Origin: a bacterium BMS3Abin02 | Lineage (GTDB): Bacteria > Actinomycetota > Acidimicrobiia > Spongiisociales > UBA4744 | Assembly: GCA_002897675.1 (NCBI GenBank) | Contig: BDSU01000022.1 | Span: forward strand, 1-64,000 | DNA length: 64,000 nt | Direction: 5' to 3' | Shown here: positions 4,445 through 53,078 of the stretch, one piece after another | How the letters are laid out: each line of letters starts with the position of its first letter | Numbering within the stretch: position 1 is the first letter of the stretch | Made by a program: the position numbers and the translations under genes | Notes under the pieces: generated by a model | What the model saw: only the letters and a program-made list of their open reading frames with translations | Database searches by the model: none | What the model was told of the DNA's origin: nothing

Positions 4445-5245
4445 TCAGCCTCCGACTTGCCCCTTGGCTTCCTCGAGAGCCTTCTCGATATCGGCGCGAA
4501 GCTGTGACGGGAGGTTCGGCTCGGCCAGGACCTGTTCGAGCAGGGGGATTGCCGACTCGGGGTCTTCGAGCCCGTAGAGATCGACGATGCCCAGGAACAG
4601 TGTGGCTTCCAGGTTGGTGGGGTCCCTCTTCAATGCCTGGTCGATGTACTGCACGGCGGCCTCGTTCTGGCCCGTCACATAGGCGAGCCATCCGACCCGG
4701 CCGAGAGTGTGGCTTGCCTCCGCGTCCGTCGGATCCTTGTCCAACACCGCGAGGTACTGATTGAGGGCGTTCGAGAAATCGTTTGCCTCGAAGTACTGGT
4801 CGGCCAGTGCGATCCGCATCTCGATGATGTCGGGGTTGGCCGCTACGGCAGCCTCCATCTGTTGAATCTCCGGGTTGCTCGAATTGGTCAAGGGTGCTGC
4901 GCCGGAGATCGGTGGTGCCGTTTGTGTCGAGGAGATGACGAGCACCAACACGACGGTGAATGCAGCAACGAGGATTCCCGCGCCGACGAGGATACGCTTG
5001 GTGGACCGCCCCTGCTCAGGAGCTTCGACGGGGGTCTCTTCCGTGGCGCTCGGTTCTGTCGGAAGTTCGTTCAGCTGTGCCTCAGCTTCCGCCAGGTCCT
5101 GCTCGTAGCGGGCTCGCAATTCCTGGGCGGTCGCCTCGTCGATCTCGCCTACGTCGACCTGATCGGCGAGCTCCTGGATGTCTCTGGCGATGAGATCGCG
5201 GCGTTCGGTCAGACGAGCTCTGAGGTTGCCGGTCGAGGAAGTCAC
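4445..5245 (-). CDS. ccmI: CcmI/CycH-like tetratricopeptide protein of cytochrome c assembly
   Basis: The frame is open further upstream, but the GTG at 5245 overlaps the ccmH stop as GTGA and has a GGGAG element just upstream, giving 266 residues. The N-terminus resembles the CcmI/CycH leader: a short helical segment rich in R, E and L (residues 1-60), then one transmembrane helix near residues 85-105, then an external domain of about three tetratricopeptide repeats. CcmI binds the apocytochrome c C-terminus and presents it to the haem lyase. Position directly after ccmH supports the role. The rest of the Ccm pathway is not in the window. The several multiheme cytochromes at 41-49 kb are probable clients. 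Confidence 0.75.
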   Translation of the reverse strand: MTSSTGNLRARLTERRDLIARDIQELADQVDVGEIDEATAQELRARYEQDLAEAEAQLNELPTEPSATEETPVEAPEQGRSTKRILVGAGILVAAFTVVLVLVISSTQTAPPISGAAPLTNSSNPEIQQMEAAVAANPDIIEMRIALADQYFEANDFSNALNQYLAVLDKDPTDAEASHTLGRVGWLAYVTGQNEAAVQYIDQALKRDPTNLEATLFLGIVDLYGLEDPESAIPLLEQVLAEPNLPSQLRADIEKALEEAKGQVGG

Positions 5246-5649
5246 GACACTCCCTTCCGCCGGGAACGCATCTTCGACAGGATGAGGGCCACCCCGGCGA
5301 TGAGCGCTACGAGCGGCAGCAGCCAGACCAACAGAGTCTTTCCCGAGAACGGAGGGTCGACGAGGATCGCAGTGTTGTAGCGATCCTCGAAGTACTGGAT
5401 GATCTGATCGTCGGTCCATCCGGCCGCAACCTTCTCCCGGGTGATCTCCATCATCGTCTGGGCGGTCTTCGACGGTGATTCGGCGATCGTGACTCCCTGA
5501 CACACGGGGCACTTGATGCGCTGACCAAGGCTGTCGACCCGATCTTCCGGTGTCGGGTCACCTGCGATCAGGCCGGCGACGACGATCGCTGCGAGCGCCA
5601 CTGTGATGACACCGGCGATGATCTGTCTTGCGCGGTTGGACATTGACAC
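5242..5649 (-). CDS. ccmH: Cytochrome c-type biogenesis protein CcmH
   Basis: This 135-residue protein has an N-terminal signal anchor, the CcmH thioredox motif in R-I-K-C-P-V-C-Q-G-V-T-I-A-E-S (CxxC near residues 47-50), a helical domain, and a C-terminal transmembrane helix followed by a basic tail. In System I cytochrome c maturation CcmH reduces the haem-binding CxxCH cysteines of the apocytochrome outside the cytoplasmic membrane. The length and two-helix topology fit the family. It is the first gene of a two-gene unit with the ccmI-like gene (GTGA overlap). The divergent P-loop gene starts about 45 bp away on the other strand. Confidence 0.9.
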   Translation of the reverse strand: MSMSNRARQIIAGVITVALAAIVVAGLIAGDPTPEDRVDSLGQRIKCPVCQGVTIAESPSKTAQTMMEITREKVAAGWTDDQIIQYFEDRYNTAILVDPPFSGKTLLVWLLPLVALIAGVALILSKMRSRRKGVS

Positions 5650-41045: not shown

Positions 41046-42980
41046 ATGAAACGCGAAATCGTCTTCGCGGCAGTGCTCATGACGGCTCTGACACTGGCGG
41101 CGTGCACAAACGGGTCGACCTCCACGACTGTGGAGGCTCCGGTGACCACGTCGACAGCGGCACCGACGCCATCCACTACCACTACCGCTACCACTACTAC
41201 TGCGGTGGCAGCGGTCACACTTCGAACCGACTGTGAGACCTGTCATGCGGATGTTCACGGTACGTGGACCACAGGGTCGCACGCAGATACCCAGGAAGAC
41301 GTCGCGAGTGAACTCGGCGAGGAGCGTGCCGGTCAGACTCCCGACGATGTCATCCACGGTGATGATCCCGAGAACTGCATCGCATGTCACGCCCCGACCA
41401 CCGGGGCGACCATGAGTGCCGTTGAAGCCCTCGACATGTTCTTCACGACGACCGATGGTGTGTTCACGAGCGACACGGCCACCAAAGATACGCCGGACTG
41501 GCCGGCCGTCACCTGCACTGCCTGTCACGAAGTGGCCGGCGATCACCCTGCAGCGTCCATGCCCACCGTCGCGGCATTCGATGCCACGTCCGGGTCGTAC
41601 ACGGCGGTTGTTGGGACGAGCGCGCTATGCGGACAGTGCCATGGGACGCTCAGGTTTCCCGACACCGACCACGTGACCTACGACGACTGGAAGGCCGGTG
41701 TGCATGCGGATACGCAGAGCGATGTGGCCGGTGAGTTGGCCGAGGAGCGTGCCGGGGAGACGCCGGCCGATGTCATCAGCGGTGATGATCCGGAGAACTG
41801 CATCGCCTGTCATGGACCGTCGGCGGTTCTCGCCAACGGCGGCATGAGTGAACAGGATGCGTTGGCCTATTTCTTCACGACGGACAACGGCCAATTCGGC
41901 GCAGCCACAACGAGTGCGCATCCCGATGAGTGGCCGAGTGTCGGATGCGTGTCTTGCCACAACCCGCACAACCCGCAGCAACCGGCGCTGTTGGATTCAT
42001 CGACAGGGAAGTACGTCGCGATGTCGAGCAGCTCGCGGCTCTGTGGCCAGTGTCACGGGAGTCTCCGCTTCGACACAGATCATCTGACCTTCGACGCCTG
42101 GTCCTCGAGTGCGCATGCGGCGACACAAGCAGACGTCGCCGCCGAGTTGGCCGAGGAGCGTGCCGGGGAGACGCCGGCCGATGTGATCGGTGGCGATGAT
42201 CCGGAAAACTGCATCGCCTGTCACGGTCCTACGGCGGTACTCGCCAACGGCGGCATGAGTGAGGCCGACGCACTCGCCTACTTCTTTACGACGGATGGCG
42301 GGAAGTTCGGCGCTGCGACGGTATCCGACCACACGTCCGAGTGGCCGAATGTCAGCTGTTCGACCTGCCATGATCCCCACAACCCGACCCAGCGTTCGCT
42401 GTTCGACTCGTCGACCGGCGAGTACCTAGTCATGAAGGACAGCTCGCAGCTGTGCGGACAATGTCATGGGAATCTGCGGTTCCCCGACACCGACCATCTC
42501 AGCTACAACATCCTGACCGGTACCGGCGGCATCAACGTGGCGGACGGCCGCACCATGCCGGGAACGACCTGCACCAGCTGCCACATGTACACGAGTGATG
42601 TCGATGGGAGTAACTCGTCGATGCAGCATGGGCACACTTGGGCGATCCTCACTCCCGAGGCAAATGGCGAGACCACCGCTTCGTGCAGCCAATGTCATGC
42701 AAACTTCTCGAGCAGCGACATCGAGGCGAAGATCACCGCATGGCAGGACTCATTCCAGTCGCTCGACGCAGTGGTGGCGGGAAGAGTGGCTGCTGCGAGT
42801 GGGGCCATGACAGGTGTCGACGATGCGGACCTTCAGGCCAAGCTGGACGAGGCACAGAAGAACCTGGCGCTCGCGGAGGGCGACGAGAGCGGCGGATTCC
42901 ACAATCACAACTATCTGATGGCTCTCCTGAAGGACGCACAGGCGAGAGCCGAAGAGGTGCTTTCCGCCCTCGGGAAGTAG
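41046..42980 (+). CDS. Dodecaheme cytochrome c lipoprotein with internal repeats
   Basis: ATG 41046 (AAGGAG 9-10 bases upstream) gives 644 residues. A lipobox L-A-A-C ends at C20, followed by a serine/threonine-rich linker. Twelve CxxCH haem motifs follow in the order CETCH, CIACH, CTACH, CGQCH, CIACH, CVSCH, CGQCH, CIACH, CSTCH, CGQCH, CTSCH, CSQCH. Three repeats of roughly 140 residues each start D-T-Q-x-D-V-A, then E-E-R-A-G-x-T-P-x-D-V-I-x-G-D-D-P-E-N-C-I-A-C-H and end C-G-Q-C-H-G. The C-terminal 110 residues are helical with two more haems. It is likely an outer-surface electron carrier. The family is not recognised beyond multiheme cytochrome. Confidence 0.93.
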   Translation: MKREIVFAAVLMTALTLAACTNGSTSTTVEAPVTTSTAAPTPSTTTTATTTTAVAAVTLRTDCETCHADVHGTWTTGSHADTQEDVASELGEERAGQTPDDVIHGDDPENCIACHAPTTGATMSAVEALDMFFTTTDGVFTSDTATKDTPDWPAVTCTACHEVAGDHPAASMPTVAAFDATSGSYTAVVGTSALCGQCHGTLRFPDTDHVTYDDWKAGVHADTQSDVAGELAEERAGETPADVISGDDPENCIACHGPSAVLANGGMSEQDALAYFFTTDNGQFGAATTSAHPDEWPSVGCVSCHNPHNPQQPALLDSSTGKYVAMSSSSRLCGQCHGSLRFDTDHLTFDAWSSSAHAATQADVAAELAEERAGETPADVIGGDDPENCIACHGPTAVLANGGMSEADALAYFFTTDGGKFGAATVSDHTSEWPNVSCSTCHDPHNPTQRSLFDSSTGEYLVMKDSSQLCGQCHGNLRFPDTDHLSYNILTGTGGINVADGRTMPGTTCTSCHMYTSDVDGSNSSMQHGHTWAILTPEANGETTASCSQCHANFSSSDIEAKITAWQDSFQSLDAVVAGRVAAASGAMTGVDDADLQAKLDEAQKNLALAEGDESGGFHNHNYLMALLKDAQARAEEVLSALGK

Positions 42981-43543: not shown

Positions 43544-45271
43544 TCAGAAAAGGCCTTGCACTTTGCCGGTCTCTGTGTCGATGTCGACGTTCTCGAACGC
43601 CGGTCTGCTGGGTAGCCCCGGCATGGTCCGCATCGTTCCGCACAGCGGATACAAGAAGCCGGCACCCACGCTGGCCCTGATATCTCGCACCGGAAGACGG
43701 AAGTGCTTTGGCACGCCTTTCGCGGTGGGGTCGTGGCTGAGACTCAGATGAGTCTTTGCCATGCAGATGGGCAGGTTGTCGTAACCGAGTTTCGTATAGA
43801 GCTTGACCTTCTTCTCTGCTGCGTCCATGAAGTCGACACCATCGGCGCCATACACGCGTGTGGCGATCAGTTCGATCTTGTCTCGGATCGGCATGTCGAG
43901 CGGATACAAGAACTTGAAATCCTTGGGCTGTTCGGCTGCCTTGACGACGGCTGTGGCGAGATCTTGAGCGCCCTTGCCGCCCCGAGCCCAGTGGTCGGTC
44001 ATGATCGCGTCTTCTGCCCCTGCCTCGACGGCGATCCTTCCCAGGAGATCGACTTCCCGCTCCGTGTCGGTGTCGAAGTGGTTGACCGCCACGACCACCG
44101 GCACGCCGAAGCCTCGGGCGATCTTGATGTGCGCGACCAGGTTGGCGGCGCCGGCTTCCAGAGACGGAAGGTTCTCGGTCGTGAGCTCGGGGGGCAGAGG
44201 TTTCCCGGCGACGACTCTGCCGAGCCCGCCGTGCATCTTCAGAGCACGGATCGTTGCCACGAGCACGACCACGTCGGGAGTCAGTCCGCTGGCACGGGAC
44301 TTGATGTCCATGAACTTCTCCATCCCGATGTCGGAGCCGAATCCGGATTCGGTCACGACATAGTCGGCCAGCCGCAACGCGATTTGATCGGCCACGATGC
44401 TGGAGTTGCCGTGCGCGATGTTGGCGAATGGGCCTGTGTGCACCAGGACCGGCGTGTGCTCGAGGGTCTGCATCAGCGTGGGCATCAGGGCATCCTTCAG
44501 CAGCACCGCCATCGCGCCTGCAACCTTGAGGTCTTCGGCGGTGATCGGGACACCGCCGAATGTGGTGCCGATCACGATGCGGCCGAGTCGCCCGCGCAAG
44601 TCTGCGAGACCGGTCGAGAGCGCAAGGATCGCCATGACTTCCGACGCAACCGCGATGTCGTACATCGACTCGCGGGGAGAGCCGTTGGGCTTGCCCCCGA
44701 GGCCGATGACGACTTTGCGTAGCGCCCGGTCGTTGAGGTCCACGACGCGTCCCCAGGTGACGGAGAACGGGCTGAGGTCGAGCTGGTTTCCGTGGGTGAG
44801 GTGGTTGTCGATCGCCGCCGCCAGCAGGTTGTGGGCGATCGAGACGGCGTGAATGTCTCCGGTCAGATGCAGGTTGAAGTCCTCCATGGGGATCACCTGG
44901 CTGTAGCCCCCACCGGCGGCACCACCCTTGATGCCGAACGTCGGGCCCATGCTCGGTTGGCGCAGCGTCGTGAACACCGAATGTCCGAGACGGCCGAGTC
45001 CCTGGCTCAGCCCGACGGCGGTGGTGGTCTTCCCTTCACCGAGCGGGGTCGGGGTGATGGCCGTGACGTCGATGTACTTGCCCATCGGCAGGCCGGAGAA
45101 CTTGTCACGAACGTCGAGGTGCACTTTCGCCTTGTACGTCCCGTACAGTTCGAGATCGTCCGGGTCGAGTCCGACGCCGGCAGCGATGTCGAGAATCGGA
45201 TCGAGAGGGGCCTCTTGAGCGATGTCCAGATCGGTCGGGACCGGCGTGCGGGGTTGGAGGTAGGAACTCAA
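43544..45271 (-). CDS. fhs: Formate-tetrahydrofolate ligase
   Basis: The TTG at 45271 has AGGAG about six bases upstream and gives 575 residues. The ATP motif is [11 protein letters not shown]. Other FTHFS markers include the N-terminal P-I-x-x-I-A followed by [39 protein letters not shown], and [10 protein letters not shown]. It makes 10-formyl-THF from formate, THF and ATP. With the Sec formate dehydrogenase it gives a route from CO2/formate into the C1 pool. It is the first gene of an operon with a cyclic-nucleotide-binding protein. A short remnant of a second copy is at 48667. Confidence 0.95.
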
Positions 45272-45466
45272 CGAATACTCCTCTCGAGGTCTGGTGGGGA
45301 GTCTATCGAAGCAGTGGAGCATCGGATCCGTTGGCCCGTGTCTGCCCGATTTCCTTCCTCAGGCGGCCTCCCTCAGGGTCGACCGGGACCCCATCCAGCG
45401 GCCACCACGAGCCGCGACGCTCGCCCTGCACGAAGCACCACGTACCCGGTAGGGCCCGCCGGCGTC

Positions 45467-47086
45467 CTAATAGCCCTCTTGTGGAGTGTGGCAGTCGGTG
45501 CAACGGATCTCCCGCCACTGCGTGCCGATATCTACCGGATGGCGGAACTCGAGACCGAGAAGATCGTGGTCCAGCTTCGACACGTCGGTGGACGGACCCT
45601 GGGCCACGATCGTGTGGCACGTGTCACACGCCCCGTTGATCTTCTCACCGGTGTCGGAGACCTTGTTGGAGCCATGACATCGGAAGCAGCCCTCGTTGAC
45701 GAAGTGGCTGAGATTGTTGAGGTGCGACCGGTAGTCGGTCTTCATGACGGGGAAGAAATTGCTCTCGTAGACACGAACGAGTGACACCGAGGCCGTTTCG
45801 ATCTGGCGCCGGATCTCGCCGACCCGCTGCGGATAGGCCTGCTCGTAGTAGGCGAGCAACGCGGTGGGGATCTTCTCGGCAGCTTCCTGCTGCGAAGTGT
45901 ACGACCTGTTGAGAAGATCCAGGCCGACTCGTCGTATGTAGGGCAGATCTCGGGAGATGGTCCCGCGAGCGATCTCCTGGTTGATCGCCACCGCCGGCGG
46001 CAAGAACAGGTGGCTGGGCCGGTTGTGGCAGTCCATGCAGTCGAACACCCTCAGCGCTGTCTTGGGGTCGTCGGGGTCGGGGTAGCTCGGCGCAGTCGGG
46101 TCCTTGTAGACCGTCACGGTGCCGTCGTCCCGGGTCACCCGCACCCATGGGATCACCTGCCGTTTCTCGTCGGTCGCCAGGTACTCGATCTTCTTGCCGA
46201 TGAGCATGTGCCAGTGGATCCCTTCCTGGGAGCCGGTATGCGTGTTGCTGCCACCGATGTTCACGAGCAGACTGATCGTCCAAGGCGAGTTCTGCTCGTC
46301 GGTCTGGAAGTAGCGACGCGTGACCAGTTTCCGTCCGTAGAACTGATTGGGCCAATGGCACGTTTCGCAGGTCTGCTGAGCAGGGCGCAGGTTCTTGACC
46401 GGAGTTGGAATCGGCCGTGGGTAGGAATTCGTCAGGGTGGCCACGACCTGACGGATCCCATCGACCTTCGACCGCACCCAGAATGATGTCCCTGAACCGA
46501 TGTGGCATTCGACGCATGGGACTCTCGCATGTGGCGAGTGCTCGTAGGTGACGGCTTCGGGTTCCATCACCTTGTGACATGTCTGCCCGCAGAACGCGAC
46601 CGAGTCTGTCGCCTCATAGCCTTTGAAGCCGCTCCAGCCGACTACGAGCAGCACCACGGCCCCGACCCCGAGGAAGACCCAGAGACTGCGCATGTACCTG
46701 GGGTTCGAAGGCTCGACACGAAGTGTGAACTGCACCTTCTCGCCGCGACGTCTCGCGTTCATCACCTGTCGGCGTACCGCGAGCAGGAAGATGAGGGCGC
46801 CCACGAGGACCACGAACGGCATCGCGACGTAGGTCACGAGGGAGCGGTACGAGTTCTGCCTACCGGAGGTCATGTCGATGGCCACGAGTACCAGGAACAT
46901 CAAGCCGCCTGCGACCATGATGGCGCCGCCCACACCGGCCAGTGGATGCCGGTACAGGCTTCGCACCTCGGTGATCGGCTCGTCTTCGCTCAGGGATGGA
47001 GGGTCGACCGGGACAGGGGATGGACCGGCAGACGATTGTCCGGGTGTGTTGGCGGGAGGCTCGTCGGGCGGTCTGACTTCAGACAC
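45467..47086 (-). CDS. Membrane multiheme cytochrome c, NapC/NirT-like, seven haem sites
   Basis: The 539-residue protein starts GTG 47086 (GGAGG upstream). A proline-rich 45-residue cytosolic leader is followed by three hydrophobic helices near residues 50-75, 85-105 and 135-155. Then come haem sites: F-C-G-Q-T-C-H (a CX3CH motif), CVECH, CETCH, CMDCH, CFRCH, CDTCH and CTDCH, together with extra histidines. The N-S-Y-P-R-P-I-P-T-P-V-K-N-L-R-P-A segment between haems 2 and 3 is typical of a group of NapC/NirT-like quinol-oxidising cytochromes in metal-reducing bacteria. It likely takes electrons from menaquinol and passes them outward. It is divergent from the heptaheme gene. Confidence 0.88.
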   Translation of the reverse strand: MSEVRPPDEPPANTPGQSSAGPSPVPVDPPSLSEDEPITEVRSLYRHPLAGVGGAIMVAGGLMFLVLVAIDMTSGRQNSYRSLVTYVAMPFVVLVGALIFLLAVRRQVMNARRRGEKVQFTLRVEPSNPRYMRSLWVFLGVGAVVLLVVGWSGFKGYEATDSVAFCGQTCHKVMEPEAVTYEHSPHARVPCVECHIGSGTSFWVRSKVDGIRQVVATLTNSYPRPIPTPVKNLRPAQQTCETCHWPNQFYGRKLVTRRYFQTDEQNSPWTISLLVNIGGSNTHTGSQEGIHWHMLIGKKIEYLATDEKRQVIPWVRVTRDDGTVTVYKDPTAPSYPDPDDPKTALRVFDCMDCHNRPSHLFLPPAVAINQEIARGTISRDLPYIRRVGLDLLNRSYTSQQEAAEKIPTALLAYYEQAYPQRVGEIRRQIETASVSLVRVYESNFFPVMKTDYRSHLNNLSHFVNEGCFRCHGSNKVSDTGEKINGACDTCHTIVAQGPSTDVSKLDHDLLGLEFRHPVDIGTQWREIRCTDCHTPQEGY

Positions 47087-47516
47087 TGAGTTCCTCCCTC
47101 CAGTTGCAGCGAGCGCCGGAACGCTGGGACAGACGTGGCCGTCGAACCTGAATCATGGAGCCGTTCGGTCCGAAAAGCAACCCGGCACGATCGTCGAGGC
47201 ACCGTACTGCCGGCGGTTACCGTTCCGGACGGAGAAGGCGAGGTGTACGGCGTATGGATCTCGACAGGCCGGTGCCTTCGTCCCGTGCGCGCCGTCCTTG
47301 GTCTTGGTTGCCTCATCGAGGCGGCAGACGGTGCACGATCTGGACTCCTGGATCGCATGCTCCCGAAGGCTGTGGACGGTCGGGTCTGTCGTGTGGGAAG
47401 AGTGGCCCGGTAGGGAGGGACTAGTCCCGGGTCCCGTGAGTAAGGGGCTTTTGGCCCTGTCAGGCGCCGCCGTTGCCCAGATAGGTTATGTCCCATAGAG
47501 AGAGTGGAGGCGGAGC
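47087..47516. other. Divergent control region between two cytochrome genes (430 bp)
   Basis: This region must hold both promoters. It contains the perfect palindrome GGGACTAGTCCC near 47416-47427, directly followed by GGGTCCC, and an imperfect hairpin GGGGC-TTTT-GGCCC shortly after. TAGGTTATG near 47480 could be a -10 element for the plus-strand gene. I checked for c-di-GMP (GEMM) riboswitch features, common upstream of cytochromes in other bacteria, and found only a weak partial resemblance. No convincing ORF. Confidence 0.4.
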
Positions 47517-48662
47517 GTGGCCGCTGATCGTCCCAATGTTCGCCATCCGAAGCAACGACGGACCGTGATTCGAGCGCGTGCGATCATTGTGGCGGGCGGG
47601 TTCGCGTTGCTTGTTCTGGTGCTCTTCGCGGCGACGGCGTGGGCTTTCGATGGCCCGACACCACCACGGCAGGGTGACCCCTTCGGCTCGAATGTGGCGC
47701 CTCACGGTGGCTACTCGGCCGGCAGCAACATGTGTCTCCAATGTCACGACGTGCACGACGCGAGCGGGGACTATGCGTTGATGTGGAAGAACAGCGTCAC
47801 CTTCATGTGCGCGACGTGTCACGGTTTGCATGGGCTCCGTGGAACGCTCGGGCTCCCGAGCGATTGCAGCGGGTGCCATGACATGCACGGAAGCTTCTTT
47901 CCTGCACCCCGAGACCCGGTCGGACCGGGAACCCTCGGCACGGTTTCGAGACGGAGTGCCTACAACACCTCCACACCGGCGTCGGCACATGGCATCGGGG
48001 CCCTTGCGCCTCCCGGTGAGACCGCCATCGTGATGACCCGGTCCGACTGGCAGTACTCGTGGGGGGCGAGCGGTCCGCCGGCTGCGGATGCGACGAACCC
48101 GTCGGGTCCAGGCACGGCGTCCGATGCCGGGGGCGGGCTCTACTGTGGGAGCTGTCACACGCCGCACGGCGACTTCGGGCAGGTCGTGAACAAGTGGACG
48201 TCGGCCGACGAGGGAAGGTCGATATGGTGGACCAACCCGGCCACGGGGGATCAGGAACAGAGGTTGTTGCACTATGACATCGGATCGGCCGCGTGGCAGG
48301 TGTGCGACGCCGACATCACCAATTGCGAGTTCGCACAAGTGCGAGATGCCGAGAACCAATTGGTGTACCTGTACGGATACAAGCTGTTGTCGGCGTATCC
48401 GAACCACGCGTACTCGACGCCCCAGAGCTACGGCACCGAGCAGGACGACGACGATGGGGCTCGATGGTGCGGCACCTGTCACACCTCCCGGGTCGACGGC
48501 GCCGGCTACCACAACCATCCGACGGGATGTAGTGCCTGTCACGGCAACCCGGCCGATGGAGCATCGACCGACTTCCCGCACACGTCAAGCGCAGATTCGC
48601 TCCTCATTGCCTACCCGGACGCGCTCTGCGTCACCTGTCATGCGTCGGGCAGCCTGCCATAG
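47517..48662 (+). CDS. Exported heptaheme cytochrome c
   Basis: The GTG at 47517 (GGAGG eight bases upstream) gives 381 residues. A basic N-terminus leads to a signal sequence with hydrophobic core near residues 22-42 (A-T-A-W-A-F likely cleavage region). The mature part has seven CxxCH motifs: CLQCH, CATCH, CSGCH, CGSCH, CGTCH, CSACH and CVTCH, with H-D-V-H, H-D-M-H and H-T-P-H distal histidines typical of doubled CXXCH repeats. These resemble NrfB/OmcX-like repeat cytochromes. It is probably exported and electron-carrying. Genes on the plus strand follow to 53 kb with the same orientation. Confidence 0.9.
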   Translation: MAADRPNVRHPKQRRTVIRARAIIVAGGFALLVLVLFAATAWAFDGPTPPRQGDPFGSNVAPHGGYSAGSNMCLQCHDVHDASGDYALMWKNSVTFMCATCHGLHGLRGTLGLPSDCSGCHDMHGSFFPAPRDPVGPGTLGTVSRRSAYNTSTPASAHGIGALAPPGETAIVMTRSDWQYSWGASGPPAADATNPSGPGTASDAGGGLYCGSCHTPHGDFGQVVNKWTSADEGRSIWWTNPATGDQEQRLLHYDIGSAAWQVCDADITNCEFAQVRDAENQLVYLYGYKLLSAYPNHAYSTPQSYGTEQDDDDGARWCGTCHTSRVDGAGYHNHPTGCSACHGNPADGASTDFPHTSSADSLLIAYPDALCVTCHASGSLP

Positions 48663-48666
48663 AAGT

Positions 48667-48828
48667 GTGCAACGCAACGAGGCACTTGCCCTCCATGTGG
48701 GACTCGAACCGGACGATCTCGACCTGTACGGCACATGCAAGGCGACAGTGTGCCTCGATGCCGATCAGGCACACCTCCTCGAGAGCGGTGAGTGGCGAGG
48801 CCCGGAGGCGCGTGGGGTTGGTGGTTGA
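48667..48828 (+). pseudogene. Remnant of a second formate-tetrahydrofolate ligase N-terminus
   Basis: An open stretch of 53 codons from GTG 48667 contains H-V-G-L-E-P-D-D-L-D-L-Y-G-T-C-K-A-T-V-C-L-D. This aligns with the start of the intact fhs product in this window ([23 protein letters not shown]). After this about 25-residue match the sequence diverges and stops, with no downstream ligase domain. It sits 4 bp after the heptaheme cytochrome stop. It is likely a fragment left by duplication or recombination; expression as a short peptide cannot be excluded. Confidence 0.6.
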
Positions 48829-48921: not shown

Positions 48922-49581
48922 ATGACAAAGCGTCTGCTGGTGGTCGCGGCCTTGCTGATCGTTGTGATAGCGGGTCTGGCGACTGCCATCTGGTATCGAA
49001 CCGGGACTCACGACCCCGTCATCGCCAAGGTCGACAACATACTCATCCACGAATCCCAGGCCGATGCCAGGATTGCGGGGATCGCCGCGGTGCACAAGGA
49101 CATCACTTCGGCTCTGGGACCCGAATGGCGCTCGCTCGTATTTCAGTCACTCGTCGATGACGTCCTCATGGGGCAAGAAGCACGGCGAGCCGGCATCGAC
49201 GTGACCAAGAAGGACGTGGACGCGTCACTCGACTCCCTGCGCGGCAGATTCCCTTCCGAAGACGACTGGAGACGCTTCCTGGAGGACCAGGGCATCGATC
49301 AGGCCGAACTCGAGCGGAGAATCCTGCTTCAGCTGGTCGGTTCCAGGGTCTACGAGGAAGTCACGGCCGACGTAGTGCCCACCGAGGACGAGCTTCACGC
49401 CTACTTCGAGGCTCACCAGTCGGACTTCACCGTCGATGGCGAGGTGCAGTCTTTTCTCGAGGTTCGCAACTCGATCGAGGACACGCTCACGAAGCAGATG
49501 CAGGACGAGGCGTTCAGTGTGTGGCTGCAGCAGCGCCGCAGTGAGGCGAACGTCGTGGTGGTGAGCGATGAGTGGCGATAG
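48922..49581 (+). CDS. Membrane-anchored SurA-N-like chaperone/foldase-related protein
   Basis: The 219-residue protein has one N-terminal membrane helix (residues 5-25) and no lipobox. The outside domain begins V-I-A-K-V-D-N-I-L-I-H-E-S-Q-A-D, then has a helical region with E-A-R-R-A-G-I-D-V-T-K-K-D-V-D, a pattern of the SurA N-terminal/trigger-factor-like chaperone domain of parvulin foldases. The parvulin rotamase domain is absent. It probably helps secreted proteins fold, and the neighbouring cytochrome genes are the obvious clients. It overlaps a small ORF by 14 bp. Confidence 0.75.
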   Translation: MTKRLLVVAALLIVVIAGLATAIWYRTGTHDPVIAKVDNILIHESQADARIAGIAAVHKDITSALGPEWRSLVFQSLVDDVLMGQEARRAGIDVTKKDVDASLDSLRGRFPSEDDWRRFLEDQGIDQAELERRILLQLVGSRVYEEVTADVVPTEDELHAYFEAHQSDFTVDGEVQSFLEVRNSIEDTLTKQMQDEAFSVWLQQRRSEANVVVVSDEWR

Positions 49582-49774
49582 GAGCCCGAGCGTCGGACTC
49601 TCCAGGGGTCCCGTCATTGTCGCCCTCGAAGACATGCGACTCGTCCGAAGCGATGCAGAAGGAGTCGAACAGTTCCACGGAGCGGCGGTCGCCGATGCGC
49701 GGTTCCTCTTCGATGCCGGCTTCGGTCTCGCTCGGACGCCGCAAGGACTCGGTTCTTCGATCTCGGTCCCGTGA
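49568..49774 (+). CDS. Small protein of 68 residues, unrecognised
   Basis: ATG 49568 begins inside the stop of the SurA-like gene (14-bp overlap) and ends 10 bp before the NHL gene start, so it fits the operon exactly. Codon third positions are mostly G/C like true genes here. The sequence has V-I-V-A-L-E-D-M-R-L-V-R-S-D and G-A-A-V-A-D-A-R-F-L-F-D-A-G-F-G-L-A but no motif I recognise and no signal peptide. It could be a chance open frame. Confidence 0.4.
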   Translation: MSGDRSPSVGLSRGPVIVALEDMRLVRSDAEGVEQFHGAAVADARFLFDAGFGLARTPQGLGSSISVP

Positions 49775-49784
49775 AGGAGCGCGC

Positions 49785-50933
49785 ATGGAACCGACACGAG
49801 AACCACCGATGGAGCAGGAACGGCAGCGTGGGAAGCAGGTCTCGACACACCGCCTGCTCTACGCTCTGGTCGCTCTTCTCGGCATCGTTGCGATCGCCCT
49901 CCTCGTCGTGCTCGTCTGGTTGCTGCGTCCTCAGCCCACCTCGACGGCGGTTGCGGCGAAGGGATGTCCCATGGACATCACGCGTTCCATCTACGGATTC
50001 GGGACCAAGCCCGGCGAGTTGCTGGTCCAACCCCTCGCGGTCACTTTCGACGGCATGGGCAACGTGTGGGTCTCCGACACGGGGAATGCCCGAGTCGTCG
50101 AGTTCGGTCCCGACGGCAAGCTGATTCGCTCCGTGGGCGACGACGGAGGTCCGGGGCGTCTCCACAGCCCCTACGGCCTGTCGTTCAGCAGCGACTTCCA
50201 GCGTCTCTACGTGGCGGACTGGACCCGACGAGAGGTGCTGATCTTCTCGGCCGAGGGACGCTACGTGCAAAGCCTGCCCGCAGGCGACCAGGACCTTGCC
50301 GTGTTCGGGCCCGACGGTTTCTCTCCCTACGATGTCGCCGTTCGCGGAGCCCAGATCGTGGTCGCTTCCAATGATGGTCTGTACTTCTTCGACAGATCGG
50401 GGTACGTCGTTGATCGGTGGGGAGGCGAGACGCGAGGATCCGACGTGGGCAGTTTTGCGTTCCCGGATGCTCTGGCCATCGACCCGACAACGGGCAACGT
50501 GTACGTTGCGGACACTCTCAACCGGCGCGTCATTGCGCTCGACGGCGACGGGAACGTGCTCTGGGTCTCGGGAGAACGTGATGAGCAGGGCAAGATCGTC
50601 GGCTTCTGGCAGCTTCCGAGATCGGTTGTGGTCGGCCCGGATGGTCTGGTCTACGTCACCGACACCTTTCGAGCCCAGGACCGCTGCGCCGGCACAGGGC
50701 ACATCGTGGTCCTGAAGCCGACGGGAGAGCTGGTCTCCGAGTTTGGTGCAGCCGGGCGATCGGAGGACACACTCAGCTTCCCGGAGAAGATGGCGATCGG
50801 CCCGGATGGCACGTTCGCCATTGCCGACCGCGAGAACAATCGGGTAGTGGTGTTCACCGTCGGTCCGCTGCCACCCGCCGATCCCGGTGAAGCGAGCCTC
50901 TACGAGAAGTCGTTCGTTCGTTTCGGGCAGTGA
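49785..50933 (+). CDS. Membrane-anchored NHL-repeat beta-propeller protein
   Basis: ATG 49785 has AAGGAG seven bases upstream and gives 382 residues; a longer frame upstream overlaps the previous ORF and is not protein-like. One transmembrane helix spans about residues 25-47. The exterior has six NHL-type blades such as P-L-A-V-T-F-D-G-M-G-N-V-W-V-S-D-T-G-N-A-R-V and P-D-A-L-A-I-D-P-T-T-G-N-V-Y-V-A-D-T-L-N-R-R-V. NHL propellers bind proteins or ligands; some sit next to cytochromes in metal-reducing bacteria. It is in the cytochrome operon, so a scaffold or electron-transfer partner role is possible. Confidence 0.88.
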   Translation: MEPTREPPMEQERQRGKQVSTHRLLYALVALLGIVAIALLVVLVWLLRPQPTSTAVAAKGCPMDITRSIYGFGTKPGELLVQPLAVTFDGMGNVWVSDTGNARVVEFGPDGKLIRSVGDDGGPGRLHSPYGLSFSSDFQRLYVADWTRREVLIFSAEGRYVQSLPAGDQDLAVFGPDGFSPYDVAVRGAQIVVASNDGLYFFDRSGYVVDRWGGETRGSDVGSFAFPDALAIDPTTGNVYVADTLNRRVIALDGDGNVLWVSGERDEQGKIVGFWQLPRSVVVGPDGLVYVTDTFRAQDRCAGTGHIVVLKPTGELVSEFGAAGRSEDTLSFPEKMAIGPDGTFAIADRENNRVVVFTVGPLPPADPGEASLYEKSFVRFGQ

Positions 50934-51021
50934 TCCGAACCCCGGCGCCGGTGGCGACCTCCCCGAACGCCGTACCTAGACTTGTCGAGCCGGGCCGGCA
51001 CTTTCGAGGAGGCCGATTGCA

Positions 51022-51723
51022 ATGGCGCGATCCGTGGAACGTATGATCGGGTACCGGAAACTCCTCGCCGACCTCGAAGAGAGCGGATGCCCGGTCTGTC
51101 GTGGATCGGTTCGCGCGGCGGCCAAGTACCTGGAGGGCCTGCTCTGGGAGAACGTGAACGATTCCGGCGTCCGCGAGGAACTTCGCGACGATCACGGGTT
51201 CTGCCGAGAGCACTCCTTGGCCCTGCTGCAGGTGGCCGGGGCGCGCAGCGAAGCTCTCGGTGTGGCCATCGTCTACGAGGACCTGCTGGACCACATCGAG
51301 CGGGACGTCGCCAACGGGGGACCGAATCCTCGACATAGATCCCTCCGCCTTCGGTCGAACACGAGGCCCGGCCGGTCCTGTCGGGCTTGTGCGGTCGCCG
51401 ACGATGTGGCCGTCAACTATCTCGGCATCATCGCGGCCTCCGAACCGGATGGTGCTGCGGGTCGACGGCTCGAAGGAGCGGTTCTGTGCTTTCCGCATTT
51501 CTCGAGGGGATTGGGGATCCCGGGGATCGATCATGCACGACTCGAGTCGGTGTATCTGCGAGGGTCGGTCTCGATCCGGTCTGAACTTCGGCGTCTCATC
51601 GATCATGCCGACTATCGGCGGGCCGATGAACCCTGGGGGCCAGAGAAGGACGCCTGGGTGCGCGCCATTCACCTGATCGTCGGTTCTCCCGCACACGGTG
51701 CCGTCGCGGACTCGCGACCATGA
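51022..51723 (+). CDS. Cytosolic protein with two CxxC-CxxH modules (DUF6062-like)
   Basis: The 233-residue protein has no signal peptide or membrane helix. It carries two copies of a C-x2-C-x(32-34)-C-x2-H motif: C23, C26, C61, H64 and C120, C123, C156, H159. The intervening sequences are helical. This pattern (C-P-V-C then G-F-C-x-x-H) resembles DUF6062-type proteins, whose function is unknown. Four such ligands could hold zinc or an iron-sulfur cluster. It overlaps the next gene by 4 bp (ATGA) and lies 88 bp after the NHL gene. Confidence 0.7.
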   Translation: MARSVERMIGYRKLLADLEESGCPVCRGSVRAAAKYLEGLLWENVNDSGVREELRDDHGFCREHSLALLQVAGARSEALGVAIVYEDLLDHIERDVANGGPNPRHRSLRLRSNTRPGRSCRACAVADDVAVNYLGIIAASEPDGAAGRRLEGAVLCFPHFSRGLGIPGIDHARLESVYLRGSVSIRSELRRLIDHADYRRADEPWGPEKDAWVRAIHLIVGSPAHGAVADSRP

Positions 51724-53078
51724 GCAGCTCGGAGCCGGCGCAAGGAGCAGCCCGGCCGGCTGACGAATGTCCCGTATGCAGCGAAGTGTCCCTGGCTCGC
51801 CAGAGACACTGGTTCTGGGTGTTCGCCGAGAAACTCGGAGATGGGGCGTTCCTCACCCGACTCGGAGCGGGAGGCGGCTACTGCGTCAGGCACGCTCGTG
51901 AGCTGCTTCTGCACGAGCAGGGAGAGCGCACGGCCCGGGGGTTCCAATTCGTGCTGCGAGGATGGCGAGATGGTCTCGGCGGTTCGATGCGTCTCGACTG
52001 CCCTGCCTGTCGTATCGAGGTCGAGACGGAGGCGTATGTCCTGCGTCTGCTGAGTCGTGGATCGTGGAGCGGAGATCAACAGACACGTCTGGACCCGGAC
52101 GCCCTGTCATGTCTGCCGCATGCCCGGATGCTCCTCGAGCAGGCACCGGAGGGAATACTCTCTGAGGCCCTGAAGCGGCTGGGTGCAACGGTTGATCGGG
52201 TGCGGGCAGGTGACGGTAGATCGCAGGCCGAGATCCACACTGCAATCGGTCACGGGTACGACGAGGCCTTCCGGAAGGCTGAACGTTGCGACACCGATGC
52301 CACGGCCGTGCTCTCGTTCGACGCCTTGGATCGTGCGCTCGCCCAAGGGTGGTGTCCTCTCTGTCTGGCAGGCCGAGAGGCGTCGGAGAACGTCATCGGA
52401 TGGCTCGGGCATCCGGATCGAACCGACCGAGATCAGGACGATTTCGCCCGGTTGTGTCCGTCCCACCTGTGGGACGCCGCGGCGAACGATCCGGAAGCTT
52501 CTGTCCGGACGATGCAGCGGATCCGTCGAACATGGATCAGGAGCCTCGGGGGACTCGAGACCCTTGTCGAAGGGGCCGCGCCGTCTGATCGGAAGGGACG
52601 ATCGGGCAGTGGGTGGCGGAGCAGGTTCCGTGGATGGTTGGAACGGGCGTTCCCGAGACGCAGTCGTGAAGTCCAGCTCCGCAAGATTCTCGTCCAGGAG
52701 GAGTGTGTGGCGTGCGTCGCAGCCGTGACTGCGGTCGATCGTGGCATTGCACTCCTCGACGCCTACCTTCTCGACACGGATCGGAGCGACTGGTACCTGC
52801 GTTCGAGCGGCGTGTGCCTGCAGCATGCCTATGTCGCGATCCCTCACCTCGGTGAGCAGCCTGCTTGCGTCGTGACCGACCGGGCGAAGACTCTCATCGC
52901 GCGCACGATGTGGGGGCTGGAAGAAGCGATCCGCAAGGTGAGCTGGTCGGTCCGGTATGAGCCGCCCGGGGAGGAGTCCGAGATGTGGCGTGAAGCGGTC
53001 GTCCTCACCGTCGGACGAGGCGTGTTGTGCTCAGATTGGCTCGCGCCCGTTCCTCAGCGACCCGAACGAGCGGTATAG
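51720..53078 (+). CDS. Cytosolic protein with four CxxC-CxxH modules
   Basis: The 452-residue protein has four modules of the same kind as its upstream neighbour: C17, C20, C55, H58; C94, C97, C131, H134; C212, C215, C246, H249; and C329, C332, C366, H369. A basic region with G-W-R-S-R-F-R-G-W-L-E-R lies between modules three and four. It has no signal peptide. I recognise no catalytic domain. The two proteins together present six modules and probably bind each other or a shared partner. Location directly after the cytochrome genes is the only functional clue. Confidence 0.7.
   Translation: MSSSEPAQGAARPADECPVCSEVSLARQRHWFWVFAEKLGDGAFLTRLGAGGGYCVRHARELLLHEQGERTARGFQFVLRGWRDGLGGSMRLDCPACRIEVETEAYVLRLLSRGSWSGDQQTRLDPDALSCLPHARMLLEQAPEGILSEALKRLGATVDRVRAGDGRSQAEIHTAIGHGYDEAFRKAERCDTDATAVLSFDALDRALAQGWCPLCLAGREASENVIGWLGHPDRTDRDQDDFARLCPSHLWDAAANDPEASVRTMQRIRRTWIRSLGGLETLVEGAAPSDRKGRSGSGWRSRFRGWLERAFPRRSREVQLRKILVQEECVACVAAVTAVDRGIALLDAYLLDTDRSDWYLRSSGVCLQHAYVAIPHLGEQPACVVTDRAKTLIARTMWGLEEAIRKVSWSVRYEPPGEESEMWREAVVLTVGRGVLCSDWLAPVPQRPERAV

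Follow-up and report, generated by a model that had tools for sequence, protein, structure and literature searches.

A dodecahaem lipoprotein related to OcwA as a candidate cell-surface terminal reductase in an actinobacterium

The gene at 41046..42980 (+ strand) of the window, the whole 64,000-nucleotide stretch of actinobacterial DNA analysed here, raises the question of whether duplication of a three-haem repeat lengthened a haem wire, as the preliminary description proposed, or enlarged a terminal reductase. The gene encodes a dodecahaem c-type cytochrome lipoprotein with matches to Pfam domains and to OcwA, described as the nonahaem cell-surface terminal reductase of Thermincola potens (PMC6703420); its coding part (41046-42977, +) specifies 644 residues and is followed by a stop codon up to 42980. 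The 644-residue product is a probable cell-surface lipoprotein, an enlarged relative of surface enzymes that pass electrons to minerals or electrodes. What its sequence presents as new is a terminal-reductase-like build lengthened by a whole three-haem module, the superfamily itself being ordinary.

All 12 CxxCH motifs of the dodecahaem protein proposed earlier were counted in the 644-residue frame, whereas 5000 composition shuffles averaged 0.04 and reached 2 at most; with the repeats also far above their shuffles, the possibility that this is not a real feature was rejected. The motif EERAGxTPxDVIxGDDPENCIACH occurs three times, exactly as first quoted, and self-comparison peaks at offsets of 137, 141, and 278. 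The signal sequence (41046..41105, +) carries a lipobox, LAAC with Cys20, read by eye as LTLAAC at residues 15-20, and an S/T/A-rich linker (41106..41225, +) runs from there to the first haem; the name lipoprotein stands on this reading by eye. Three modules of about 137 residues follow on the same strand: module 1, of type A, with haems 1-3 (residues 61-194; 41226..41627), and modules 2 and 3, of type B, with haems 4-6 (residues 195-332; 41628..42041) and haems 7-9 (residues 333-469; 42042..42452). The three three-haem repeats are thus real, but the description built on them had overlooked the C-terminal part, where a haem-bearing segment with haems 10-12 (42453..42713, +), aligned by hmmsearch with haems 7-9 of OcwA (6i5b), precedes a three-helix bundle (42714..42977, +). 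If each repeat is taken to start at the EERAG motif, the repeats hold nine haems, with haem 1 before them and haems 11 and 12 and the three-helix tail after them, and this ending is the NrfA/OcwA signature.

The host assignment was upheld. Six matches to WhiB, an actinobacterial marker, occur in the genome (2.5 Mb in 46 contigs, 95% complete), two of them on the window's own contig, and among 14 control genomes Corynebacterium glutamicum alone matched. A sister genome (G001) is largely collinear around the locus, and bin contamination was rejected because of this collinearity and the WhiB genes on the same contig. Multihaem cytochromes are not unheard of in actinobacteria: the available text of one study describes two Anaerosomatales genomes encoding 17-18 of them, one with an OcwA homologue (PMC9686372), and that of another describes a Coriobacteriaceae-related strain, EMTCatB1, that expresses them on a biocathode (PMC7943316). 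Among the open PMC papers searched, none dealt with a dodecahaem cytochrome lipoprotein in actinobacteria. Elsewhere in the genome, contig C8 opens with a large multihaem cluster of four neighbouring frames that carry 11, 10, 10, and 8 CxxCH (L035:2-4607, +; the first is cut by the contig end). Beyond it, a 744-residue frame joins several cbb3-type cytochrome c domains to the C-terminal domain of a cytochrome b and has 7 CxxCH (L035:8174-10405, +). Contig C14 of the window's genome holds a second 6-haem NapC/NrfH-like gene with a 9-haem gene near it.

Placement in the c554/NrfA/OcwA superfamily

By their profile matches, the three modules and the C-terminal part belong to the cytochrome c554/NrfA/OcwA superfamily. 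Cytochrome_C554 (PF13435) matched the module starts (49.6 bits against a cut-off of 20.8; 7.8e-13) and Cytochrom_C552 (PF02335) the C-terminus (79.8 bits against 24.1; 2.7e-22). OcwA (6i5b) came top in all searches of solved structures, at 1.8e-11 with the protein, 1.5e-14 with five rows, and 4.6e-17 with a nineteen-row profile, and was followed by NrfA and the octahaem nitrite reductase; the 4.6e-17 match places profile positions 232-439 on chain positions 301-496, the NrfA-like half. The Pfam MtrC/MtrF II/IV domain also matched (2e-17), and TIGR03507 (OmcA/MtrC decahaem) was absent among the NCBIfam matches listed.

The window protein shares with OcwA the haem order of the NrfA-like half, the CHxxH ligand, VDCHM, and C-terminal helices with HN, and a pocket His of OcwA aligns with the His of the family's TDH. 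It differs in having 12 haems rather than 9 (one extra B module), a lipoprotein anchor with a long linker, and Asp-His at the pockets where OcwA has His-His, with the second His alone kept. It also has no space for the beta domain reported at OcwA residues 75-156 (PMC6703420), since only 48 residues separate its haems 1 and 2. The C-terminal haems, three-helix bundle, and above-cut-off score are shared with NrfA, the pentahaem ammonia-forming nitrite reductase (PF02335), though the window protein has seven more haems, all CxxCH and none CxxCK, and the best stretch of the NrfA profile spans 244-375 of its 438 positions. Each module opens like cytochrome c554 (PF13435; PDB 1bvb/1ft5), with haem 1, W...H, and haem 2, but cytochrome c554 is a single tetrahaem protein with neither repeats nor an NrfA-like tail. 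A further Gram-positive comparison, made by description and not by sequence, is OmhA of Carboxydothermus ferrireducens, presented as an OcwA-related, 11-haem surface reductase candidate linked to ferrihydrite reduction (PMC7829351), against 12 haems here.

Haem-free structure predictions were confident mostly in the terminal helices (largely pLDDT 80-98) and low in the haem part, with a mean pLDDT of 52 and pTM of 0.28 for the full-length model (593 aa, 8 rows) and of 65 and 0.44 for module 3 plus the C-terminus (317 aa, 12 rows). Foldseek with the latter, low-confidence model placed OcwA in the first row (E 7e-3, probability 0.95, TM 0.27), with NrfA, octahaem nitrite reductase, and MccA in other rows and none reaching E 0.001. 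VIA-align matched mainly the helix bundle, where NrfA and MccA stand amid designed and unrelated bundles that score equally, and OcwA was not among its 50 rows.

The Cytochrom_C552 score and these Foldseek rows would suit a periplasm-side or surface enzyme for nitrite, hydroxylamine, sulfite, or tetrathionate, serving respiration or detoxification. OcwA itself is reported to reduce nitrite, slowly, and hydroxylamine, which makes a soluble substrate conceivable for the window protein by analogy, but the candidate active-site haems are CxxCH, in contrast to the CxxCK that the same source gives for most NrfA (PMC6703420). The relatives, moreover, bear surface-export tails. Such tails are unusual for a nitrite reductase, and we regard an enzyme dedicated to nitrogen or sulfur compounds as quite unlikely.

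Relatives and history of the modules

A named scan with two short peptide patterns gave 70 stretches and 5 relatives, all on MAG contigs, from genomes labelled Phycisphaerae, Melioribacteraceae, Verrucomicrobia, Acidobacteriota, and Eisenbacteria; two of the five contigs are just 3.3-3.8 kb, so these labels may be wrong. Within the class to which the Melioribacteraceae genome belongs (Ignavibacteria), profile searches matched 15 of 294 genomes; they also matched 2 of 297 Acidobacteriota genomes at 1e-40 and, in the phylum that includes the Phycisphaerae genome, solely that genome itself (1 of 294 at 1e-60). Within its own class, the full protein was found only in its own genus (2 of 296 genomes at E<=1e-8, one of 148 genera), and the search of its own phylum matched 3 of 296 genomes at 1e-15, two of them through distant OcwA-like SLH proteins. 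Repeats private to actinobacteria were rejected, given the relatives in other phyla from the named scan and the Acidobacteriota and Ignavibacteria-class searches.

The relatives follow a common plan, A + n x B + C, and homologues with both fewer and more repeats exist, as the preliminary description had suggested looking for. Outside the genus, 18 complete or nearly complete relatives (L017, L018, L019, L031, L043-L055, and L057) were counted: 17 have one B module and 9 haems, and L057, from Acidobacteriota, has a c554-like start, three B modules, a C part, and 15 haems. The window protein and its sister species lie between, with two B modules and 12 haems. Four partial sequences (L020, L021, L030, and L056) were excluded from this count. 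Among the 9-haem forms, the Ignavibacteria-class relatives (L018, L043-L055) have the A, B, and C parts in common with the window protein at about 50% identity, and differ in their single B module and in a T9SS tail in place of its lipid anchor. No paper on this family was found among the open PMC papers searched. Separately, the Eisenbacteria relative (L021:5254-6534, +) ends after haem 7 with DPDHPLMSGKGKGG, without a helix bundle, and looks like either a shortened family form or a damaged gene.

Modules 2 and 3 are identical at 98 of 132 columns, against 64 of 130 for modules 1 and 2 and 65 of 131 for modules 1 and 3, all three pairs lying 23-41 SD above shuffles with the CxxCH sites held in place; repeat 1 is older and more diverged than the other two. 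The counterpart in the sister species is likewise 644 residues long and 89% identical, with a dN/dS of about 0.10-0.19 for each module (0.10 in module 3). A decaying copy was rejected on the strength of this purifying selection.

In a midpoint-rooted tree of 45 modules, first modules stand apart from later ones, and module 1 of the window protein clusters with the first modules of its relatives (97/92). Modules 2 and 3 form one clade with their orthologues from the sister species (100/97), so they are each other's closest kin, and the extra module is a product of this lineage that is older than the split between the two species. Duplication, as first proposed, is thus borne out. The three L057 modules cluster weakly (87/84), and the extra B module of the window lineage was apparently gained independently of them.

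A core tree groups the window protein with proteins of Verrucomicrobiota, Planctomycetota, and Acidobacteriota (100/99) and separates it from the Ignavibacteria set (100/99); support for the exact sister of the window protein is weak (87/77). This placement, together with presence in one of 148 sampled genera of the class, makes horizontal gain of the gene by the window lineage likely, its direction being inferred from midpoint-rooted trees. Composition gives no sign of transfer, as the GC of the gene (0.626) is close to that of the window (0.637).

Candidate ligands and open haems

OcwA is reported to have six bis-His haems (1, 3, 4, 6, 7, and 8), one His-Met haem (9), and two open haems (2 and 5) that sit under the His-His motifs 281/282 and 380/381 (PMC6703420). 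In the hmmsearch alignment with the nineteen-row profile, family haem 6 (CHDPHNP) falls on OcwA TCQVCHASH, with the His of the family's CHxPH on CHASH; the family's CGQCHGNLRFPDTDH covers the CTQCH...VHHPH segment, its VDCHM is paired with VDCHM, its GH His with SHLMKVV, and its HNH with VHNYD. Of the HH380/381 pair, which lies above open haem 5, the second His falls on the TDH His. The first motif, SHHLQYPEWLMTGH, matches TDHVTYDDWKAGVH by eye with identical spacing to W and H, and in the OcwA-like protein L024 its own HHSYYNEWLLSGH aligned on tDHriydaWksskH (TDH...W...H). These alignments of OcwA pocket motifs with TDH suggest that haems 2 (C111-H115), 5 (C252-H256), and 8 (C389-H393) of the window protein hold the place of the OcwA open haems, and each module may thus have one such haem, giving three substrate sites rather than two.

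The candidate ligands are strongly conserved. The W...H histidines (H79, H220, and H357) are kept in 45 of 45 modules, H167 in 17 of 20 first modules, the CHxPH histidines (H308 and H445) in 24 of 25 later modules, and the TDH histidines H209 and H346 in 25 of 25 later modules. In the 21 C-termini, H530, H619, M504, and M514 are invariant, and H621 and the TDH histidine H484 occur in 20. As a bookkeeping argument, we propose a set that fits twelve haems: eight bis-His haems with H79, H167, H220, H308, H357, H445, H530, and H619 as putative distal ligands, three open haems, and haem 12 as a likely His/Met haem with M504 or M514. Above each candidate open site would stand the His of the TDH that follows, namely H209, H346, and H484.

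The TDH His could instead ligate a haem, and the protein would then have no open haems. It might in that case be a pure electron conduit, the reading of the preliminary description, with every haem six-coordinate, the repeats extending a chain through the cell wall, and contact with the acceptor left to another protein; the 12 conserved extra histidines would suffice for 11 bis-His haems and one His/Met haem, and repeats with conserved spacing under purifying selection are consistent with it. Against this, the TDH His aligns with the pocket residues of OcwA and not with its ligands, and the structurally solved relatives are terminal reductases and multihaem enzymes that bind substrate at a haem, which makes a pure conduit unlikely. 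The haem wire of the preliminary description is thus only partly supported: the same relatives suggest that each added repeat brings not just length but also a candidate active site.

Surface location, neighbouring genes, and electron flow

All 14 of the Ignavibacteria-class relatives that are complete or nearly so carry a type IX sorting (T9SS) tail with the motif NYPxPFNP, and L018 gives a Por_Secre_tail match of 6e-10. At the Acidobacteriota locus L020, a 634-aa barrel-like frame with no Pfam or NCBIfam match is followed by a DmsE-type decahaem gene (6.9e-47, under that model's cut-off) and then by the family relative, as would be expected if a porin-cytochrome conduit were encoded together with its outer partner. 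The T9SS tails and the DmsE adjacency both indicate the cell surface for these relatives, and the tails, with the window protein's own lipobox, are indirect signs from which we infer a surface location for it too. The open PMC papers searched included none that joined type IX secretion with a multihaem cytochrome, nor any on Ignavibacteria that linked multihaem proteins to sorting as well as to extracellular electron transfer. Another genus of the window's own phylum also encodes two OcwA-like nonahaem proteins (L023:409-3003 and L024:376-3006, both +), of which L023 carries SLH domains; such SLH cousins would bind the cell wall and fix a terminal reductase there.

Two multihaem genes lie less than 7 kb from the dodecahaem gene. 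One encodes a membrane hexahaem cytochrome of NapC/NrfH type, a candidate quinol oxidase (45467..47086, -; 6 CxxCH; Cytochrom_NNT 1.3e-8; NrfH 5.6e-18 at 65.3 bits, below the cut-off of 134.2), and the other a heptahaem cytochrome with an N-terminal hydrophobic stretch, a candidate intermediate carrier (47517..48662, +; 7 CxxCH; Paired_CXXCH 2.5e-17). These neighbours resemble the order of quinol oxidase, carrier, and terminal reductase proposed for Thermincola in the text available to us (PMC7911101), an analogy that may reflect a functional link, although proximity of genes does not prove a common chain. No cell-wall conduit gene was identified near the dodecahaem gene. The window also holds a CcmH gene for haem attachment (5242-5649, -) and, behind the heptahaem gene and in one direction, genes for a SurA-like foldase, an NHL propeller, and two Cys-rich DUF6062 proteins (48922-53078, +), a set that may serve cytochrome export or assembly.

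We therefore favour, with modest confidence and on sequence evidence, a lipoprotein of the c554/NrfA/OcwA superfamily that acts as a cell-surface terminal reductase, passing respiratory electrons to an external acceptor such as an Fe(III) mineral, a humic substance, an electrode, or a soluble shuttle. Electrons would pass from the quinol pool into the hexahaem cytochrome of NapC/NrfH type nearby, cross other multihaem proteins to the dodecahaem protein, and run down a continuous chain of low-spin haems inside it. The middle haem of each module (2, 5, and 8), lacking a sixth ligand from the protein, would be where the acceptor or shuttle binds, and tandem duplication of the B module in the window lineage would have added three haems and the third such site.

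Electrons might also flow the other way, supplied to the protein by a mineral, cathode, or partner cell and handed on to the interior. The biocathode expression of multihaem cytochromes by the Coriobacteriaceae-related actinobacterium (PMC7943316) fits such uptake, and OcwA-type haem chains should be reversible in principle. Direction cannot be told from sequence, but none of the window genes examined points to lithotrophic electron uptake, and we consider this very unlikely.

Beyond the single protein, it is possible, if doubtful, that a terminal reductase has grown by insertion of whole catalytic three-haem modules, each B copy with its own open haem (two sites in the 9-haem, three in the 12-haem, and perhaps four in the 15-haem form), and that an actinobacterium acquired it from diderm bacteria and re-fitted it with a lipid anchor. 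If this is true, one surface protein would offer several parallel discharge points and a longer reach from the membrane. Electron exit across thick Gram-positive walls is an open question, for which OcwA is the structurally characterised terminal reductase, and the 9-, 12-, and 15-haem family forms a natural series in length and site number that could separate the effect of more acceptor sites from that of a longer wire, or of both. The family may likewise record how octa- and nonahaem enzymes arose through module duplication.

Two minor observations concern the neighbouring genes. The sister genome has a nonahaem membrane cytochrome gene (L039:16413-17642, -) between its hexahaem and heptahaem genes, which is missing from the corresponding interval of the window (47086-47517). 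After the heptahaem gene of the window, at approximately 48684-48828 (+), a frame, GLEPDDLDLYGTCKATVCLDAD, resembles by eye the start of the formate-tetrahydrofolate ligase at 43544-45322 (-), and looks like the remains of another copy of that ligase.
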